A DNA stretch of 64,000 nucleotides from Aquimarina muelleri DSM 19832 (GTDB lineage: Bacteria; Bacteroidota; Bacteroidia; Flavobacteriales; Flavobacteriaceae), in assembly GCF_000430665.1 (NCBI RefSeq), contig NZ_AUML01000001.1, positions 186,001-250,000 on the forward strand. The letters are read 5' to 3'. The first letter of the stretch is position 1, and every line of letters begins with the position of its first letter. A model generated the notes under the pieces. That model was not told the origin of the DNA, ran no database searches, and saw nothing but the letters and a program-made list of their open reading frames with translations. Positions 21,517 to 29,001 of this stretch are shown one piece after another. The translations under genes were made by a program, and so were the position numbers.

Positions 21517-21978
21517 TTATATATAAAATTCAGAAGTGTGTTTTATCTCTTTTAGAACAAACGTACTGTTTAAGACCCCAATGTTTTCAATTTTTGAAAG
21601 TTTTGTTTTTACAAAATCATGATACTCTTCGAGACTTTTAGTATGTATTTTTAGAATAAAATCAACCTGACCAGCCATATGATAGCACTCCTGTACTTCT
21701 TGCAGGTTTTGTATTTGTTCTTCGAATTTTTCTATAAAAGCTTCATTATGATATCGCATAGAAACCTGACAAATAGTAGTCATGGAGCGATCGATTAACT
21801 TTTTATCTAATATAGCAACATACTTTTTGATAAATCCGTGTTTTTCTAATCTTCGTATTCGTTCGTAAACCGGAGAAGTAGTTAGATTAAGGATATTAGC
21901 AATTTCTTTAGCTGTTTTTTTAGAATCTTCCTGTAAAATTCTAAGTATAGTAAGATCTGTAGGGTCTAATTCTTCCAT
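21517..21978 (-). CDS. Lrp/AsnC family transcriptional regulator
   Basis: The 153-residue protein has an N-terminal winged helix (DPTDLTILRILQEDSKKTAKEI, then SPVYERIRRLEKHGFIKKYVA) and a C-terminal RAM ligand-binding domain (MAGQVDFILKIHTKSLEEYHDF). It is divergent from the threonine dehydrogenase gene across 260 bases. By analogy with Lrp control of tdh-kbl in E. coli, it may regulate the neighbouring threonine-to-glycine pathway, though this is inferred from position alone. Confidence 0.92.
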   Translation of the reverse strand: MEELDPTDLTILRILQEDSKKTAKEIANILNLTTSPVYERIRRLEKHGFIKKYVAILDKKLIDRSMTTICQVSMRYHNEAFIEKFEEQIQNLQEVQECYHMAGQVDFILKIHTKSLEEYHDFVKTKLSKIENIGVLNSTFVLKEIKHTSEFYI

Positions 21979-23265: not shown

Positions 23266-24453
23266 ATGTTCTCAAATATAAAAGACGATTTACAAAAAGA
23301 ACTAGACGAAATTAAATCTGCTGGTTTATATAAAACAGAAAGAATAATTACAACTCCACAAGGAGCAAAGATTGATACCACAAATACAAAAGATGTTTTA
23401 AATTTTTGCGCAAATAATTATTTAGGATTGTCTTCGCATCCAGAGGTTATCGAGGCAGGTAAGAATGCTATAGATTCTCATGGATATGGTTTGTCATCAG
23501 TTCGATTCATTTGTGGTACTCAAGATATTCATAAAGAGTTAGAGAGTAAAACAGCTGAGTTTTTAGGAATGGAAGACTGTATTTTATATGCAGCAGCCTT
23601 TGATGCTAATGGAGGAGTGTTTGAACCTATTTTAGGAGCAGAAGATGCTATTATCTCTGATGCATTAAACCACGCTTCGATTATTGATGGGGTTAGATTA
23701 TGTAAAGCAAAACGCTTTAGATACGAACATAATAATATGGAGGATCTCGAAAAGCAGTTAAAAGCGGCAGAAGGATCAAGACGAGTACTTGTGGTAACAG
23801 ATGGTTCTTTTTCTATGGATGGCACCATTGCACAATTAGACAAAATCTGTGATCTGGTAGAAAAGTATGGAGCAATGATTATGATAGATGAGTGCCATTC
23901 TACTGGTTTTTTAGGAAAAACAGGTCGAGGTACACATGAGTATCGAGATGTAATGGGGCGTATAGATATTATTACAGGTACCTACGGTAAAGCGCTAGGA
24001 GGAGCATCTGGAGGATTTACGGCTGCAAGAAAAGAAATTGTAGAAATGTTAAGACAGCGTTCCAGACCTTATTTGTTCTCTAATACAGTTGCTCCTTCTA
24101 TAGTAGGAGCGTCCATTAAGGTATTAGATATACTATCGTCATCAACTACGTTACGAGATAAATTAGAAGAAAATACAAAATATTTTAGGTCAGAAATGAC
24201 TGCTGCAGGATTTGATATCATACCAGGGGATCACCCAATAGTTCCGGTAATGCTTTATGATGCAAAACTTGCACAAGAGTTTGCTGCAAAACTATTAGAA
24301 GAAGGGATTTATGTAATAGGCTTTTTCTATCCAGTAGTTCCACAAGGAAAAGCAAGAATTAGAGTTCAGCTGTCCGCAGGACATGAACGTATTCATTTAG
24401 AAAAAGCAGTGAAAGTCTTTACTAAAGTAGGTAAAGAGCTAAATGTAATATAA
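23266..24453 (+). CDS. kbl: Glycine C-acetyltransferase (2-amino-3-ketobutyrate CoA ligase)
   Basis: The 395-residue PLP enzyme cleaves 2-amino-3-oxobutyrate with CoA into glycine and acetyl-CoA. Family blocks are [30 protein letters not shown], the PLP-lysine region [14 protein letters not shown], and [14 protein letters not shown]. The length is close to E. coli Kbl (398). Related enzymes (BioF, HemA, SPT) share the fold, but the upstream threonine dehydrogenase favours Kbl. A strong terminator follows. Confidence 0.93.
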
Positions 24454-24487
24454 TCTCATATAGCTTTAAAAAAGCAGAAATTATATA

Positions 24488-24533
24488 AAACAAACTACCC
24501 TGTTCATATAATAATGAACAGGGTAGTTTGTTT
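24488..24533. terminator. Strong hairpin terminator after kbl
   Basis: AAACAAACTACCCTGTTCAT (24488-24507) and ATGAACAGGGTAGTTTGTTT (24514-24533) are perfect 20-base arms with a 6-base loop. The A- and T-rich ends of the stem serve as U-tracts in both orientations. Confidence 0.88.
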
Positions 24534-24758
24534 AAAAAGTATCTAAAATGTTCTTTTTAAGAATTAATTAGTTGAATAGGTTGCTGTTTTTTTTGTAAAG
24601 GTCTGATTTAGTAGTGTTCACGAACGTTTGTTAGCAGTTTAAAATGTAGAAGATTCTCAATATACTTATATTTTTGTTTAAAATATTTCACAAAAACGAT
24701 GCTAAATATTTAGATTTGATGATAATTCAAGTGAATGGATTAAAAAAATAAAAAATAT

Positions 24759-24788
24759 TTTGATTCGTAATAGTTTTAGCTACTTTAG
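24759..24788 (+). promoter_or_regulatory. Candidate promoter of the pheA leader
   Basis: TTTG at 24759-24762 and TACTTTAG at 24781-24788 (one mismatch to TAnnTTTG) are spaced by 18 bases. The leader-peptide ATG at 24810 follows. The same string TACTTTAGCAA occurs at 22110 before the threonine dehydrogenase gene. Confidence 0.5.
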
Positions 24789-24809
24789 CAATGTAATAAT
24801 GATACAATA

Positions 24810-24887
24810 ATGAGCAATTTATTTACTTGGAACCGATTTTATTTTTTCTTCTTTTATTTTAAAAGCAAGATCGGGATCACTATGTAA
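24810..24887 (+). CDS. Aromatic-rich leader peptide of the pheA attenuator (25 residues)
   Basis: The ATG at 24810 opens a 25-codon frame ending at TAA 24885-24887. Ten residues are aromatic: seven Phe, two Tyr and one Trp, with the dense run RFYFFFFYF at residues 9-17 (24834-24860). The frame ends just past TCGGGAT (24871-24877), which can pair with the 5' arm of the terminator downstream. Ribosome stalling at the Phe/Tyr codons would expose that segment. Such a leader upstream of a prephenate dehydratase gene is what transcription attenuation predicts. It is too short for standard gene callers. Confidence 0.88.
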   Translation: MSNLFTWNRFYFFFFYFKSKIGITM

Positions 24888-24945
24888 ATAGATAAACAAA
24901 AATTTATATAACTAAAATCCCGACAAAAAATCGGGATTTTTTTTT
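24871..24945 (+). promoter_or_regulatory. pheA attenuator: antiterminator/terminator switch
   Basis: The terminator is AAAATCCCGA (24914-24923), a 7-base loop, TCGGGATTTT (24931-24940) and T residues to 24945. An upstream copy of TCGGGAT (24871-24877), inside the leader ORF, can pair with ATCCCGA (24917-24923) instead. The two folds share the same strand and exclude each other. Starved ribosomes stall upstream, leaving 24871-24877 free to form the antiterminator. Ribosomes that reach the stop codon at 24885 cover it and let the terminator form. Confidence 0.87.
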
Positions 24946-25007
24946 GGAATAGATTCATTAATAATATCTGAATGTTTAAAATTATTGAAAAATAATAAAA
25001 TAAATAA

Positions 25008-25838
25008 ATGAAACAAAAGGTAGCTATACAAGGGGTAAAAGGCTCTTATCATCATGGAGTTGCTCAAGCATATTTTGGAGAAAATGTCGATGTAAAAGAG
25101 TGTATGTCTTTTCAAGAATTAGTACTTAGTCTAGAGAACGAAAAAAGTACAGATGCAGTAATGGCTATCGAAAACTCGATAGCAGGATCCATTATTCCTA
25201 ATTACGCATATATCGATGAGCATAATCTTACTATTAGAGGAGAGTACTTTCAGCCTATTCATCATTGTTTGATGGCATTAGATAATCAAGAGATTTCTGA
25301 TATAAAAGAGGTGTATTCGCATCCCATGGCTTTGTTACAGTGTAAAGAGTTTTTTAAAGGGCAACCTCATATCAAACTAGTAGAAGATGCAGATACGGCA
25401 GATGTTGCTAAAAGAATTCATGAAAAGCAACTAATAGGAATAGCGGCAGTAGCTGGTGAAACAGCAGCAAATATTTACAATCTAAATATTTTAGCAAAAG
25501 AGATTCAGACTATAAAATCAAATAGCACTCGTTTTTTTATTTTAAACAAATACAAAGAAATAAAGGTAGAGAAGAAAGAAATAAATAAAGCATCCTTAAA
25601 ATTTCTAACAGATCATAAAAAAGGAAGTTTGGCAACTGTACTTAATGTAATGAGTGATTGTGGATTAAATTTAACGAAAATACAATCCTTGCCAGTAATT
25701 AGTATGCCTTGGAAATATTCTTTTTTTGTAGATGTAACATTTACTGAATATAAAAATTACGAAAAGGCGATGTCAATTTTAAAAATAATGGCACTAGAAC
25801 TTAAAGTACTAGGAGAATATAAAAATCAGAACGGATGA
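25008..25838 (+). CDS. pheA: Prephenate dehydratase
   Basis: The 276-residue enzyme converts prephenate to phenylpyruvate in phenylalanine synthesis. The catalytic motif TRFF is at residues 174-177 (SNSTRFFIL), and VMAIENSIAGSI is typical. A C-terminal ACT domain runs from about residue 195. The usual regulatory ESRP motif is replaced by QSLP (KIQSLPV), so phenylalanine binding may differ. There is no chorismate mutase domain; that activity is fused to DAHP synthase at the end of the operon. It is first in a four-gene operon behind the attenuator, and its stop overlaps the next ATG. Confidence 0.94.
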   Translation: MKQKVAIQGVKGSYHHGVAQAYFGENVDVKECMSFQELVLSLENEKSTDAVMAIENSIAGSIIPNYAYIDEHNLTIRGEYFQPIHHCLMALDNQEISDIKEVYSHPMALLQCKEFFKGQPHIKLVEDADTADVAKRIHEKQLIGIAAVAGETAANIYNLNILAKEIQTIKSNSTRFFILNKYKEIKVEKKEINKASLKFLTDHKKGSLATVLNVMSDCGLNLTKIQSLPVISMPWKYSFFVDVTFTEYKNYEKAMSILKIMALELKVLGEYKNQNG

Positions 25839-27031
25839 GGATATCAACTGCAAAAAGATTAGAAACTATAGAAGAGTATTATTTTTCCAAAAAGCTAAGA
25901 GAAGTAAGAGAGCGCATAGCTTCAGGAAAACCAGTTTTAAATATGGCAATAGGAAGCCCTGATCTAGACCCTCCAAAAGAAGTAGTACAGGCTATTCAAG
26001 AAGAAGCACTTATAGAAGGGGCTCACAAGTATCAAAGCTATCAAGGGATTCCAGAGTTACGCAAAGCAATTTCAGATTTTTATAAAGCAAAATATAAAGT
26101 CTCTTTAAATCCAGAAAATGAAATTTTACCTTTAATGGGATCCAAAGAAGGGATTATGCATATTTCACTAGCATATTTAAACGAAGGAGATCAAGTGTTA
26201 GTTCCTAATCCGGGATATCCTACTTATACAGCAGTAGCTAATTTAATTGGAGCGAAGCCACTGTTTTATGATTTGGTAGAAAATAATAACTGGGAACCAG
26301 ATTTTCATAGCCTTTCAAAAATGGACTTAAGTAAGGTTAAAGTGATGTGGGTTAATTATCCAAATATGCCAACAGGATCTTCTGGAAGTATTAATCTTTT
26401 TCAAAAACTGATTGATTTTGCTAAAAAACATAGCATCCTATTGGTTAATGATAACCCATATAGCTTTATTTTAAATGAGTATCCTATTAGTATTTTTTCA
26501 ATAAATGGAGCAAAAGATGTAGCTTTAGAACTTAATTCGTTAAGCAAAACTTTTAATATGGCAGGATGGCGAGTAGGGATGGTAAGTGGTAGCTCTGATA
26601 AGATCGAAGCTATACTTAAAGTAAAAAGTAATATGGATAGTGGTATGTTTTTGGGTATTCAAAAAGGAGCTATTGCAGCATTGCGTATTAGTGATTCTTG
26701 GTATGATAACATGAATCTAATTTATAAAGAAAGGAGAGAACTAATATGGAAATTAGCAAGTTTATTAGGAGGTAGTTATGATAAAACTACAAAAGGAATG
26801 TTTGTTTGGGTTAAGCTTCGTGATGGGGTAAATGCAGTAGAATTTATCGATAATATCTTATATCAAAATGATATTTTTATTGCTCCTGGAGATATTTTTG
26901 GAAGCAATGGGAAAGGGTATATACGTTTTTCATTATGTATAGCTAAAGAAAATATAGAAGAAGCAATACAAAGATTGCAAAATAAAAAATTACATTTTAT
27001 AACTGATATACCGATGATAAATCAAAACTAA
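25835..27031 (+). CDS. PLP-dependent aminotransferase, probable aromatic amino acid aminotransferase
   Basis: The 398-residue class I/II aminotransferase has GSPDLDPP, YQSYQGIPELRKAI, NPGYPTY and the PLP-lysine region LNSLSKTFNMAGWRVG. The ATG overlaps the pheA stop (ATGA), indicating coupling. Its place between pheA and tyrA suggests transamination of phenylpyruvate and 4-hydroxyphenylpyruvate, or of prephenate. Sequence alone cannot separate it from aspartate- or LL-DAP-type relatives. Confidence 0.88.
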   Translation: MRISTAKRLETIEEYYFSKKLREVRERIASGKPVLNMAIGSPDLDPPKEVVQAIQEEALIEGAHKYQSYQGIPELRKAISDFYKAKYKVSLNPENEILPLMGSKEGIMHISLAYLNEGDQVLVPNPGYPTYTAVANLIGAKPLFYDLVENNNWEPDFHSLSKMDLSKVKVMWVNYPNMPTGSSGSINLFQKLIDFAKKHSILLVNDNPYSFILNEYPISIFSINGAKDVALELNSLSKTFNMAGWRVGMVSGSSDKIEAILKVKSNMDSGMFLGIQKGAIAALRISDSWYDNMNLIYKERRELIWKLASLLGGSYDKTTKGMFVWVKLRDGVNAVEFIDNILYQNDIFIAPGDIFGSNGKGYIRFSLCIAKENIEEAIQRLQNKKLHFITDIPMINQN

Positions 27032-27037
27032 TAATAG

Positions 27038-27886
27038 ATGAACGTATTCGTAATAGGAGTAGGGTTAATAGGAGGATCATTTGCAATAGATATAAAAGCA
27101 ACTTTTAACGAAGCTATGATTTATGGTGTAGATAAAAATGAAGAAAATTTAAAGCAAGCATTATCATTAGGGTTTATTGATTGTACGTCTGATTTAGAAA
27201 GTTTAGAAAAAGCAGATATTGTTATTGTAGCAATACCAGTAGATGCAACTGTTGAAATTTTATCGATTATTTTAGATAAAATAGGGGATGATTGTTTGGT
27301 CTTTGATGCAGGTTCAACAAAGAAAAAATTGTGTGAAACAATAGAAAGACATCATAAGAGAAGAAATTACTTGGCAACACATCCAATTGCAGGAACAGAG
27401 TTTTCTGGACCACAAGCAGCTATTGCAAATTTATATAGAGGAAAAACTAATATTATTTGTGAAGTAGAAAAAACAGCATTTAAATTACAAGAAAAAGGGA
27501 TGGAGATTTTTTCTAGACTAGGAATGCGAATTAGGTATATGGATCCTGGATCACATGATAAGCATATAGCTTATGTCTCTCACCTGTCTCATATTAGTTC
27601 TTTTATGCTAGGTAAAACGGTAATAGAAAAAGAAAAGAATGAAAGAGATATTTTTGATATGGCAGGAAGTGGTTTTGCTTCTACCGTTCGTTTAGCAAAA
27701 AGTTCACCAGATATGTGGACACCTATTTTTAAACAAAATAAAGAAAACATATTAGAAACTCTAAAAGAGTATATAGCTAATCTTACACATTTTAAAGGAT
27801 TAATAGAAAATGAGGATTTTTTAGCAATCCATAAAGAAATGGAAGAAACTAATTATATAAAAACAATTTTAAAAGGAATTGCATAG
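27038..27886 (+). CDS. tyrA: Prephenate dehydrogenase
   Basis: The 282-residue enzyme oxidises prephenate to 4-hydroxyphenylpyruvate for tyrosine synthesis. The NAD(P)-binding motif VIGVGLIGGSFAIDIK is at the N-terminus; DAGSTKKKLC, THPIAGTEFSGP and SHLSHISSFMLG are family blocks with the catalytic histidines. It lacks both a chorismate mutase and a C-terminal ACT domain. It begins 6 bases after the aminotransferase. Confidence 0.94.
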   Translation: MNVFVIGVGLIGGSFAIDIKATFNEAMIYGVDKNEENLKQALSLGFIDCTSDLESLEKADIVIVAIPVDATVEILSIILDKIGDDCLVFDAGSTKKKLCETIERHHKRRNYLATHPIAGTEFSGPQAAIANLYRGKTNIICEVEKTAFKLQEKGMEIFSRLGMRIRYMDPGSHDKHIAYVSHLSHISSFMLGKTVIEKEKNERDIFDMAGSGFASTVRLAKSSPDMWTPIFKQNKENILETLKEYIANLTHFKGLIENEDFLAIHKEMEETNYIKTILKGIA

Positions 27887-27918: not shown

Positions 27919-29001
27919 ATGGAGAATAAGAAAGAACTTAGAAACTGGCTTGATGATTATAATTTAGATCACCCTTTAGTAATAGGTGGGCCTTGTAGTG
28001 CAGAAACAGAAGACCAAGTAGTTAAAATAGCACATCAGCTTAAAGATTCTGATGCCACAGTATTACGTGCAGGTATCTGGAAACCAAGGACAAGACCAGG
28101 TAACTTTGAAGGGGTAGGTGCTTTGGGGTTAAAATGGCTACAACGAGCTAAAGAAGAAACAGGTATGAAGATAGCTACAGAAGTAGCAAGCCCTCATCAT
28201 GTAGAGTTAGCTTTAAAACACGGAGTTGATGTTCTGTGGATAGGAGCAAGAAGTACAGTTTCTCCTTTTATTGTTCAAGATATAGCAGATGCTTGTAGAG
28301 GAATAGACAACCCCGTATTGATAAAAAACCCTATTAATCCAGATTTATCGTTATGGTTAGGGGCGGTAGAACGTTTTTATACAGCAGATGTAAAAAATCT
28401 AGGGGTTATTCATAGAGGGTTTTCTACTTATGAAAAAACTAAATATCGTAATATCCCAGAATGGCAAATACCAATTGATTTACAAAACCGTTTTCCCGAT
28501 TTACCATTAATATTAGACCCTTCTCATATTGCAGGAAGAAGAGATTTGATTTTTGATTTATCTCAAACAGCATTAGAACTTAATTTTGATGGATTAATAG
28601 TAGAAACACATTATGATCCAGATAATGCATGGAGTGATGCAAAGCAGCAGATAACACCAGAGACATTAATTCAGTATATGAAAGATTTAAAAATCCGTAA
28701 AGAAGTTGGGGTAGATGAAGCATATCAAAAAGCACTTAGTGAGTTGCGTGCTAAAATTGATATAGCAGACAACCAGTTATTAGATGTTTTATCAAAAAGA
28801 ATGAGAATTTCTGATGAAATTGGTAAAGTAAAAGCAAAACAGAATGTTGCAATCTTACAATCTAAAAGATGGAATGAAATATTAGGAAAAATGATTCTCG
28901 AAGGAGAAGAAAACGGATTGAGTGAGGAGTTTATGCTTCGTATTTACAAAGCAATTCATCAAGAATCTATTAATCATCAGAAAAAAGTGGCGAAAGGATA
29001 A
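27919..29001 (+). CDS. Bifunctional DAHP synthase / chorismate mutase
   Basis: The 360-residue protein combines a 3-deoxy-7-phosphoheptulonate synthase of the type Ibeta (KDO8P-like) class, with GGPCSAETEDQV, LRAGIWKPRTRPGNFEG and LILDPSHIAGRRD over residues 1-260. A type II (AroQ) chorismate mutase covers about 270-355, with LRAKIDIADNQLLDVLSKRM. It thus catalyses the first shikimate step and the branch step to prephenate. The mutase domain often confers feedback control on the synthase. It ends the pheA operon and is followed by a terminator. Confidence 0.94.
   Translation: MENKKELRNWLDDYNLDHPLVIGGPCSAETEDQVVKIAHQLKDSDATVLRAGIWKPRTRPGNFEGVGALGLKWLQRAKEETGMKIATEVASPHHVELALKHGVDVLWIGARSTVSPFIVQDIADACRGIDNPVLIKNPINPDLSLWLGAVERFYTADVKNLGVIHRGFSTYEKTKYRNIPEWQIPIDLQNRFPDLPLILDPSHIAGRRDLIFDLSQTALELNFDGLIVETHYDPDNAWSDAKQQITPETLIQYMKDLKIRKEVGVDEAYQKALSELRAKIDIADNQLLDVLSKRMRISDEIGKVKAKQNVAILQSKRWNEILGKMILEGEENGLSEEFMLRIYKAIHQESINHQKKVAKG

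Follow-up and report, generated by a model that had tools for sequence, protein, structure and literature searches.

The pheA locus and its leader

The window, meaning the whole 64-kb stretch of Aquimarina muelleri DNA that was analysed, carries on its forward strand an operon for aromatic amino acid biosynthesis. The first gene, pheA (25008-25838), encodes prephenate dehydratase and matches PF00800 above the Pfam cut-off; it is followed on the same strand by a class I/II aminotransferase gene (25835-27031), by tyrA for prephenate dehydrogenase (27038-27886; NF006307, 387.9 bits against a cut-off of 295) and by a gene for a DAHP synthase-chorismate mutase fusion (27919-29001), both domains of which are matched below the curated cut-offs. 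With the NCBIfam models listed, tyrA is the only one of the four operon genes over a curated cut-off; no cut-off was exceeded for the aminotransferase among 25 of the 68 matching NCBIfam models, and from its context this enzyme is probably an aromatic aminotransferase. With pheA, the aminotransferase gene, tyrA and the DAHP synthase-chorismate mutase gene side by side, the operon serves the synthesis of Phe and Tyr, and the DAHP synthase supplies the pathway to every aromatic amino acid. About 3 kb upstream, on the reverse strand (21517-21978), lies a gene for a regulator of the Lrp/AsnC family, another possible amino-acid-responsive regulator.

Upstream of pheA lies a leader peptide ORF (24810-24887, forward strand), which reads MSNLFTWNRFYFFFFYFKSKIGITM and ends with TAA at 24885-24887. 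Its 25 codons include seven for Phe, two for Tyr and one for Trp, as the preliminary description of this DNA had counted them, and codons 10-17 (24837-24860) form the aromatic run FYFFFFYF, the presumed regulatory codons; the earlier start of this run at 24834 was wrong, as 24834-24836 is CGA, which encodes Arg and lies outside the uninterrupted run. After a gap of 26 nt the leader stop is followed by the terminator (24914-24940, forward strand), with a stem of 10 pairs, four of them G-C, a loop of 7 and a T-run that continues to 24945. The strong terminator and T-run claimed in the preliminary description were recovered by a terminator scan of 24300-25300, in which two terminator-like sites were found compared to a mean of 0.3 in shuffled sequences. 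The second site is a hairpin on the reverse strand (24488-24533), strong, with 20 pairs and a minus-strand terminator score, located directly after a 395-aa gene that ends at 24453.

Aromatic-rich short ORFs do occur in AT-rich DNA, and this speaks for an alternative reading, an ordinary intergenic terminator that happens to follow a chance aromatic ORF. Both strands of the window contain 1555 distinct short ORFs (8-45 codons), of which 11 have at least six Phe or Tyr within some eight residues and two have eight of eight. Only one of those 11, the pheA leader, has a terminator within 120 nt downstream, and with a looser threshold of five in eight there is one ORF with a terminator on each strand.

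The leader is preceded by a likely promoter at 24760-24788 (forward strand), composed of TTG (24760-24762), 18 nt, and TACTTTAG (24781-24788), which would be a loose variant of the TTG / TAnnTTTG type of Bacteroidota. In the relatives described below, the pattern TTG-N15-22-TAnnTTWR precedes the ATG of the leader at 48 of 65 genus loci, where shuffles predict 3.0, and at 58 of 82 loci outside the genus, where they predict 4.7; these counts are descriptive only, since this loose pattern was chosen after the sequences had been seen. The strict TAnnTTTG box gives a weak signal, occurring in 37 of 147 loci and in about 10% of shuffles.

Distribution of the element among relatives

A search for PheA gave a match in 65 of 66 genomes of the genus, counting the window's own, in 228 of 249 genomes of the family, in 69 of 118 of the order and in 33 of 119 of the class, and PF00800 was matched in 102 of 118 genomes of the phylum. 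The upstream DNA was then read at 65 genus loci, 67 loci of the same family, 13 loci of the order outside this family, 20 class loci and 20 loci of the phylum draw. The family sample consists of about every second match plus a few, that is 67 of 227 matching genomes with the window's own set aside, and it favours PheA proteins similar to the query, so that weaker matches are under-represented (three were added through the order search). A leader was counted only when Phe and Tyr made up at least five of eight residues. Three of 100 non-genus loci (L127, L138, L141) could not be anchored on pheA; they raise the order loci to 13 from the 10 included in the 162 that were scored (65 genus, 67 family, 10 order and 20 class). 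Among these 162, 13 were dropped, 11 for want of a leader rich in Phe and Tyr and two (L150, L139) for want of a terminator, and one more (L164) passed the script and was rejected by hand because its strand A, defined below, lay 161 nt away. Later counts therefore refer to 148 loci, except that one swap test with a freely placed strand A and the percentiles of the strand A spacing still include L164 (149 loci).

A leader rich in Phe and Tyr followed by a terminator is present at all 65 genus loci, which comprise 64 relatives and the window itself, and at all 67 sampled loci of the same family. Outside the family it is found at 6 of 13 order loci, 10 of 20 class loci and 4 of 20 loci in the phylum draw, leaving 7 order loci (three of them the unanchored ones), 10 class loci and 16 phylum-draw loci at which the element did not pass. 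Three of the four phylum-draw positives (L190-L192) belong to the class, and the fourth, L186, comes from outside it; the remaining 16 loci, all outside the class, are negative, and some of these reads may fall inside a longer gene. For the phylum draw a different terminator rule was used and the region was counted from the PF00800 match, which may sit late in a longer protein (several matches have open frames near 380-740 aa), so these negatives carry little weight. By these counts the element appears to be general among the sampled members of the family, patchy across the class and rare beyond it. The preliminary description had proposed that relatives be compared for aromatic codons, alternative pairing and covarying stems: aromatic codons and alternative pairing are both present at each of the 65 genus and 67 family loci, and the covariation of the stems is treated in the next section.

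Two single loci deserve mention on their own account. L186 comes from a genome (G545) of another class in the same phylum and has a leader rich in Phe and Tyr, MKNNYYTGFGFYYFYLTRPSCRD, with a terminator; among the four phylum-draw positives, to which inspection of the alternative pairing was confined in that draw, it is the single case outside the class, and its pairing is short and begins 17 nt past the aromatic run. In a single-contig genome of the genus (L063, G033:C1:3855447-3856272), pheA is matched in two overlapping pieces, one of which contains an in-frame TAG, and the leader and terminator are still there.

Competing helices and the predicted position of the ribosome

Three strands of the leader transcript can be combined into two alternative helices. 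Strand A (ATCGGGATC, 24870-24878, forward strand as for all strands given here) lies within the leader ORF, would form the 5′ arm of an antiterminator, and contains a copy of the terminator 3′ arm, the second TCGGGAT at 24871-24877 to which the preliminary description had drawn attention. Strand B (AAAATCCCGA, 24914-24923) is the shared arm, forming the antiterminator with A and the terminator with strand C (TCGGGATTTT, 24931-24940), which is the terminator 3′ arm and runs on into the T-run.

Both helices were examined in an alignment (A1) of 90 sequences out of 91 references, with L061 left out and with only 7 of the 65 genus loci included, partly picked to show variants. For the antiterminator, 7 of 7 pairs have changed on both sides, 86.9% of cells are paired, and 84 double-change cells are observed compared to 32.2 in shuffles (reached in 0 of 500); displacing the partner by 1-3 columns lowers pairing to 27-45%. 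Its ends are less regular: 45 of 90 sequences leave the outermost pair unpaired and 40 of 90 have a gap at the innermost one, and the excess of further pair types over the shuffles is only moderate (13 of 500 reach the observed value). The terminator shows the same behaviour, with 8 of 8 pairs changed on both sides, 97.6% of cells paired, 86 double-change cells against 20.6 in shuffles (0 of 500), and pairing that falls to 23-50% when the partner is slid. The stem occurs in the types ATCCCGAT, GTCTCGAT, GTCCCG, GTCCTGAT, AAGCCTCG, GTCCCGGC and GACCGCTC, and each is matched by its own copy in the leader. The two predicted helices are thus mutually exclusive and both are backed by covariation.

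Since such shuffles keep the relatedness of the sequences, a second test exchanged B strands between genomes and defined A as a set stretch, 4-21 nt past the last aromatic codon. Across the 148 loci, the mean A:B energy is -11.42 kcal/mol with the genome's own B strand and -8.29 kcal/mol after swapping, and none of 5000 permutations was as low; an earlier version in which A was freely placed gave 0 of 10000 (149 loci). The permutation keeps relatedness between groups, yet it requires that A and B changed together. Among the genus loci alone the test carries no information (own -10.94, swapped -11.04; 4379 of 5000), because the stems barely vary there. The covariation of the antiterminator and the swap test contradict a chance ORF before an ordinary terminator, and the conservation of the element, the covariation of a strand inside the leader and the narrow spacings described below stand against it as well, so that this alternative can practically be discounted.

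The spacings of the element are narrow. From the last aromatic codon to the start of A the median distance is 9 nt with quartiles of 8 and 10 (149 loci) and a full spread of 2-19 nt (148 loci), while B starts 19-46 nt past the leader stop and never closer than 19 nt (148 loci). When the last aromatic codon sits in the ribosomal A site, the leading edge of the ribosome would lie approximately at the start of strand A. With this general footprint size, a ribosome stalled on the run would free A and one at the stop would cover it, and since B lies 19-46 nt past the stop, the latter would leave B free. The preliminary description had judged the geometry suitable for attenuation from one genome, and the spacings among relatives agree with it.

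In folds of the nascent RNA from which the part covered by a stalled ribosome was removed, A:B forms at 148 of 148 loci, compared to 185 of 740 folds in which the spacer was shuffled. With the ribosome at the stop the terminator forms in 148 of 148, which is so by construction, as a terminator was required for entry. In an equilibrium fold with A free and C present, A:B is kept at only 12 of 148 loci and the terminator is favoured. Because equilibrium favours the terminator once C has been made, antitermination must be kinetic: A:B has to form before the terminator and to hold until the polymerase is past the T-run.

We therefore regard the element as a ribosome-mediated transcription attenuator that senses charged tRNA-Phe and tRNA-Tyr, a reading to which we give roughly nine chances in ten, in which ribosome stalling, terminator read-through and a response to both amino acids are what we infer from sequence and folding. 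Four marks of a leader-peptide attenuator are found together at the locus, namely an ORF rich in codons for the product, an intrinsic terminator, a covarying antiterminator and a fitting spacing. When both charged tRNAs are plentiful, the ribosome would reach the stop at 24885-24887 and cover A, so that B would pair with C and transcription would end at the T-run. When charged tRNA-Phe or tRNA-Tyr is scarce, the ribosome would stall within 24837-24860 with its leading edge approximately at the start of A, A:B would form once B is made, and the blocked terminator would allow transcription of pheA and of the aminotransferase, tyrA and DAHP synthase genes.

When the leader is left untranslated, termination by default may result from a weaker helix, in which the Arg-Phe codons pair with the beginning of strand A. 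In the whole-leader fold, a possible protector strand (CCGATTTT, 24833-24840) pairs with AAGATCGG (24867-24874), which overlaps the antiterminator strand, and this helix, which would correspond to the protector or pause hairpin (1:2) of E. coli trp, may hold A back in the absence of a ribosome. The comparative signal is weak: the helix energy is -8.88 with the own strands and -7.78 with swapped ones (148 loci; 0 of 5000), the swap test gives 1 of 5000 within the genus and 4 of 5000 outside it, and energies of -9.48 and -8.42 compare with -8.3 and -7.79 when the protector region is shuffled. Part of this signal may reflect shared ancestry.

Another possibility is that the peptide acts in trans, or that the leader functions through translational coupling, with the terminator secondary. 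Many leaders of the genus are alike beyond their aromatic residues (WNRF, KSKIGIAM), and a trans-acting attenuator peptide, peTrpL, has been described (PMC7298713). The exact peptide FYFFFFYF is found in 42 of 65 genus leaders in six different DNA versions; that these differ only at synonymous positions was rejected as evidence, as the argument is circular when the 42 leaders were picked by that peptide. The C-terminus of the peptide, however, varies together with the RNA strand (GIAM, GLL, ETLYV), and strand A falls in each of the three reading frames (84, 25 and 12 of 121 scored), lying at or past the leader stop at 20 of 148 loci. Being kept in every frame and even beyond the stop, strand A is evidently conserved as RNA. 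One leader with a frameshift (L038) and three with an early stop (L040, L044, L047) likewise retain strand A and leave the RNA motif intact. An action of the peptide itself, or control by translational coupling, is accordingly very improbable compared to attenuation by the RNA.

Amino acids probably sensed and relation to known leaders

Which amino acids an attenuator of this kind responds to can be approached from its codons. Each of the 148 leaders, which were selected for Phe and Tyr together, has at least three Phe and at least two Tyr, which makes joint sensing of Phe and Tyr likely. The preliminary description had held that the mixed codons would sense both, and the 148 leaders together with an operon for Phe and Tyr speak in its favour. 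Alternatively, Phe alone or a general slowing of translation could be the signal, with Tyr and Trp codons as passengers of a T-rich sequence, as would suit the dominance of Phe in the genus (a mean of 6.7 Phe against 2.4 Tyr per leader) and the abundance of T-rich short ORFs in an AT-rich genome. The Tyr codons of every leader, subject to the same joint selection, the means of 3.7 Tyr and 5.5 Phe per leader outside the genus and the presence of prephenate dehydrogenase in the operon argue against it, and we consider this reading unlikely.

Since the DAHP synthase of the operon supplies chorismate for Trp too, the leader might also sense a third amino acid through the one Trp codon that precedes the run, so that a shortage of Trp would open the operon as well. 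A Trp codon is indeed present in 97 of 148 leaders, and Trp makes up 2.5% of leader residues outside the genus. Against this, 51 of 148 leaders have no Trp, a single codon would presumably stall the ribosome only weakly, and trpE has a Trp leader of its own, which makes a role for Trp at pheA less likely. Such a role is possible, and a sensor of all three amino acids seems to us quite unlikely compared to one of Phe and Tyr.

Leaders of this type are also found elsewhere in the same genome, where 4 of 8 other amino acid gene loci (hisG, ilvD, trpE and one aspartate kinase gene) have a matched leader. The hisG leader (L166) is rich in His (MKNIIVHHHHSYIFAQAW, with HHHH) and the ilvD leader (L167) in Ile and Val (MRVFNNIIINVIIIIVIISQV), each being followed by a terminator, and the layout at ilvD is that of pheA, with a copy of the terminator 3′ arm (ATGAAGGGA) about 7 nt past the last Ile codon. 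At trpE (L168), a Trp leader (MKIILTKNWWWSSQSENVVR, with WWW) precedes a terminator and matches the Rfam family RF01692 Bacteroid-trp with 61.1 bits against a gathering score of 49, which is a positive control for the approach; the folds showed no clear antiterminator for this leader. The aspartate kinase locus (L170) has a Thr/Ile-rich ORF and no terminator by the rule used, and no matched leader was found at a second PF04715 match (L169) or at three other aspartate kinase loci (L171-L173). From these leaders of one genome, for Phe/Tyr, His, Ile/Val, Trp and perhaps Thr, it can be proposed with about even odds that leader-peptide attenuation is a general and old control of amino acid operons in the class that holds the Flavobacteriaceae, having at pheA and ilvD a compact design in which the copy of the terminator 3′ arm lies within the leader some 7-10 nt past the sensing codons.

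As to known RNA families, the pheA leader scores 19 bits with Rfam RF01859 Phe_leader, below the gathering score of 55, and membership in Phe_leader or Trp_leader was rejected, as matches to them are sub-threshold only. A T-box or riboswitch was likewise rejected, as there is no Rfam match at the leader at gathering score; at that score the window has a single match, to a SAM riboswitch (RF00162, 10910-11014, forward strand, 82.5 bits). Bacteroid-trp, a predicted Trp leader RNA of Bacteroidota, differs from the pheA leader in its Trp codons and its structure, and matches to it with E values as high as 10 do not include the pheA leader. Positions 24750-25010 had no match in a phage search.

The kind of control proposed here has precedents. 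In 2010, in the portion of one report that concerns leader-peptide systems, these were said to have been shown, to its authors' knowledge, only in Proteobacteria and Actinobacteria, to which that work added Firmicutes (PMC2965389), and a comparative survey of the same year by Lopatovskaya and colleagues is cited in a section of a later paper (PMC4833913). For Bacteroidetes, Bacteroid-trp appears among the motifs in the relevant part of another report of 2010 (PMC2864571) and is placed before the trp operon of Flavobacterium psychrophilum in a section of a further paper (PMC6414381), and a passage on Bacteroides thetaiotaomicron mentions short ORFs reminiscent of attenuator leaders (PMC7366714). 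Closest to the present case, a structured element without an Rfam match has been reported before pheA in F. psychrophilum and also in other genera of Flavobacteriaceae, in a section that sees strong clues for leader-peptide attenuation before amino acid operons of F. psychrophilum generally (PMC9723704, 2021). That element shares its gene and family with ours, the likeness being one of description rather than of sequence, and the section concerned gives no leader sequence or switch (PMC9723704). Among the open-licence papers listed, none was seen to describe pheA switch strands in Bacteroidota.

The preliminary description had expected a clear case in Bacteroidota to be informative; the element is a well supported case, and attenuators in Bacteroidota are not new in view of Bacteroid-trp and the element of 2021. 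This type of control was known, and so was an element ahead of pheA in F. psychrophilum; added here are the switch strands, the covariation of both helices and the taxonomic range. The named strands make up a concrete proposed switch at a site for which a structured element had been noted and left unexplained, and it can be set beside the His, Ile/Val, Trp and possible Thr leaders of the same genome. What makes the element interesting is how widely it occurs, that its two alternative helices both covary, and its bearing on transcription-translation coupling in Bacteroidota. Because a terminator timed by the ribosome needs translation that keeps pace with transcription, these leaders offer a ready assay for coupling in Bacteroidota, and if control of this kind is maintained across the class, translation would run close behind RNA polymerase in bacteria that are described as having no Shine-Dalgarno sequences. 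Such leaders could also seed a new family of the Rfam type.

The logic proposed for A. muelleri is like that of pheL-pheA in E. coli, where a leader rich in Phe codons and a terminator and antiterminator precede the gene for prephenate dehydratase. To our knowledge, pheL has no Tyr codons. In contrast, the A. muelleri leader includes Tyr codons, and its operon adds tyrA and DAHP synthase to prephenate dehydratase.
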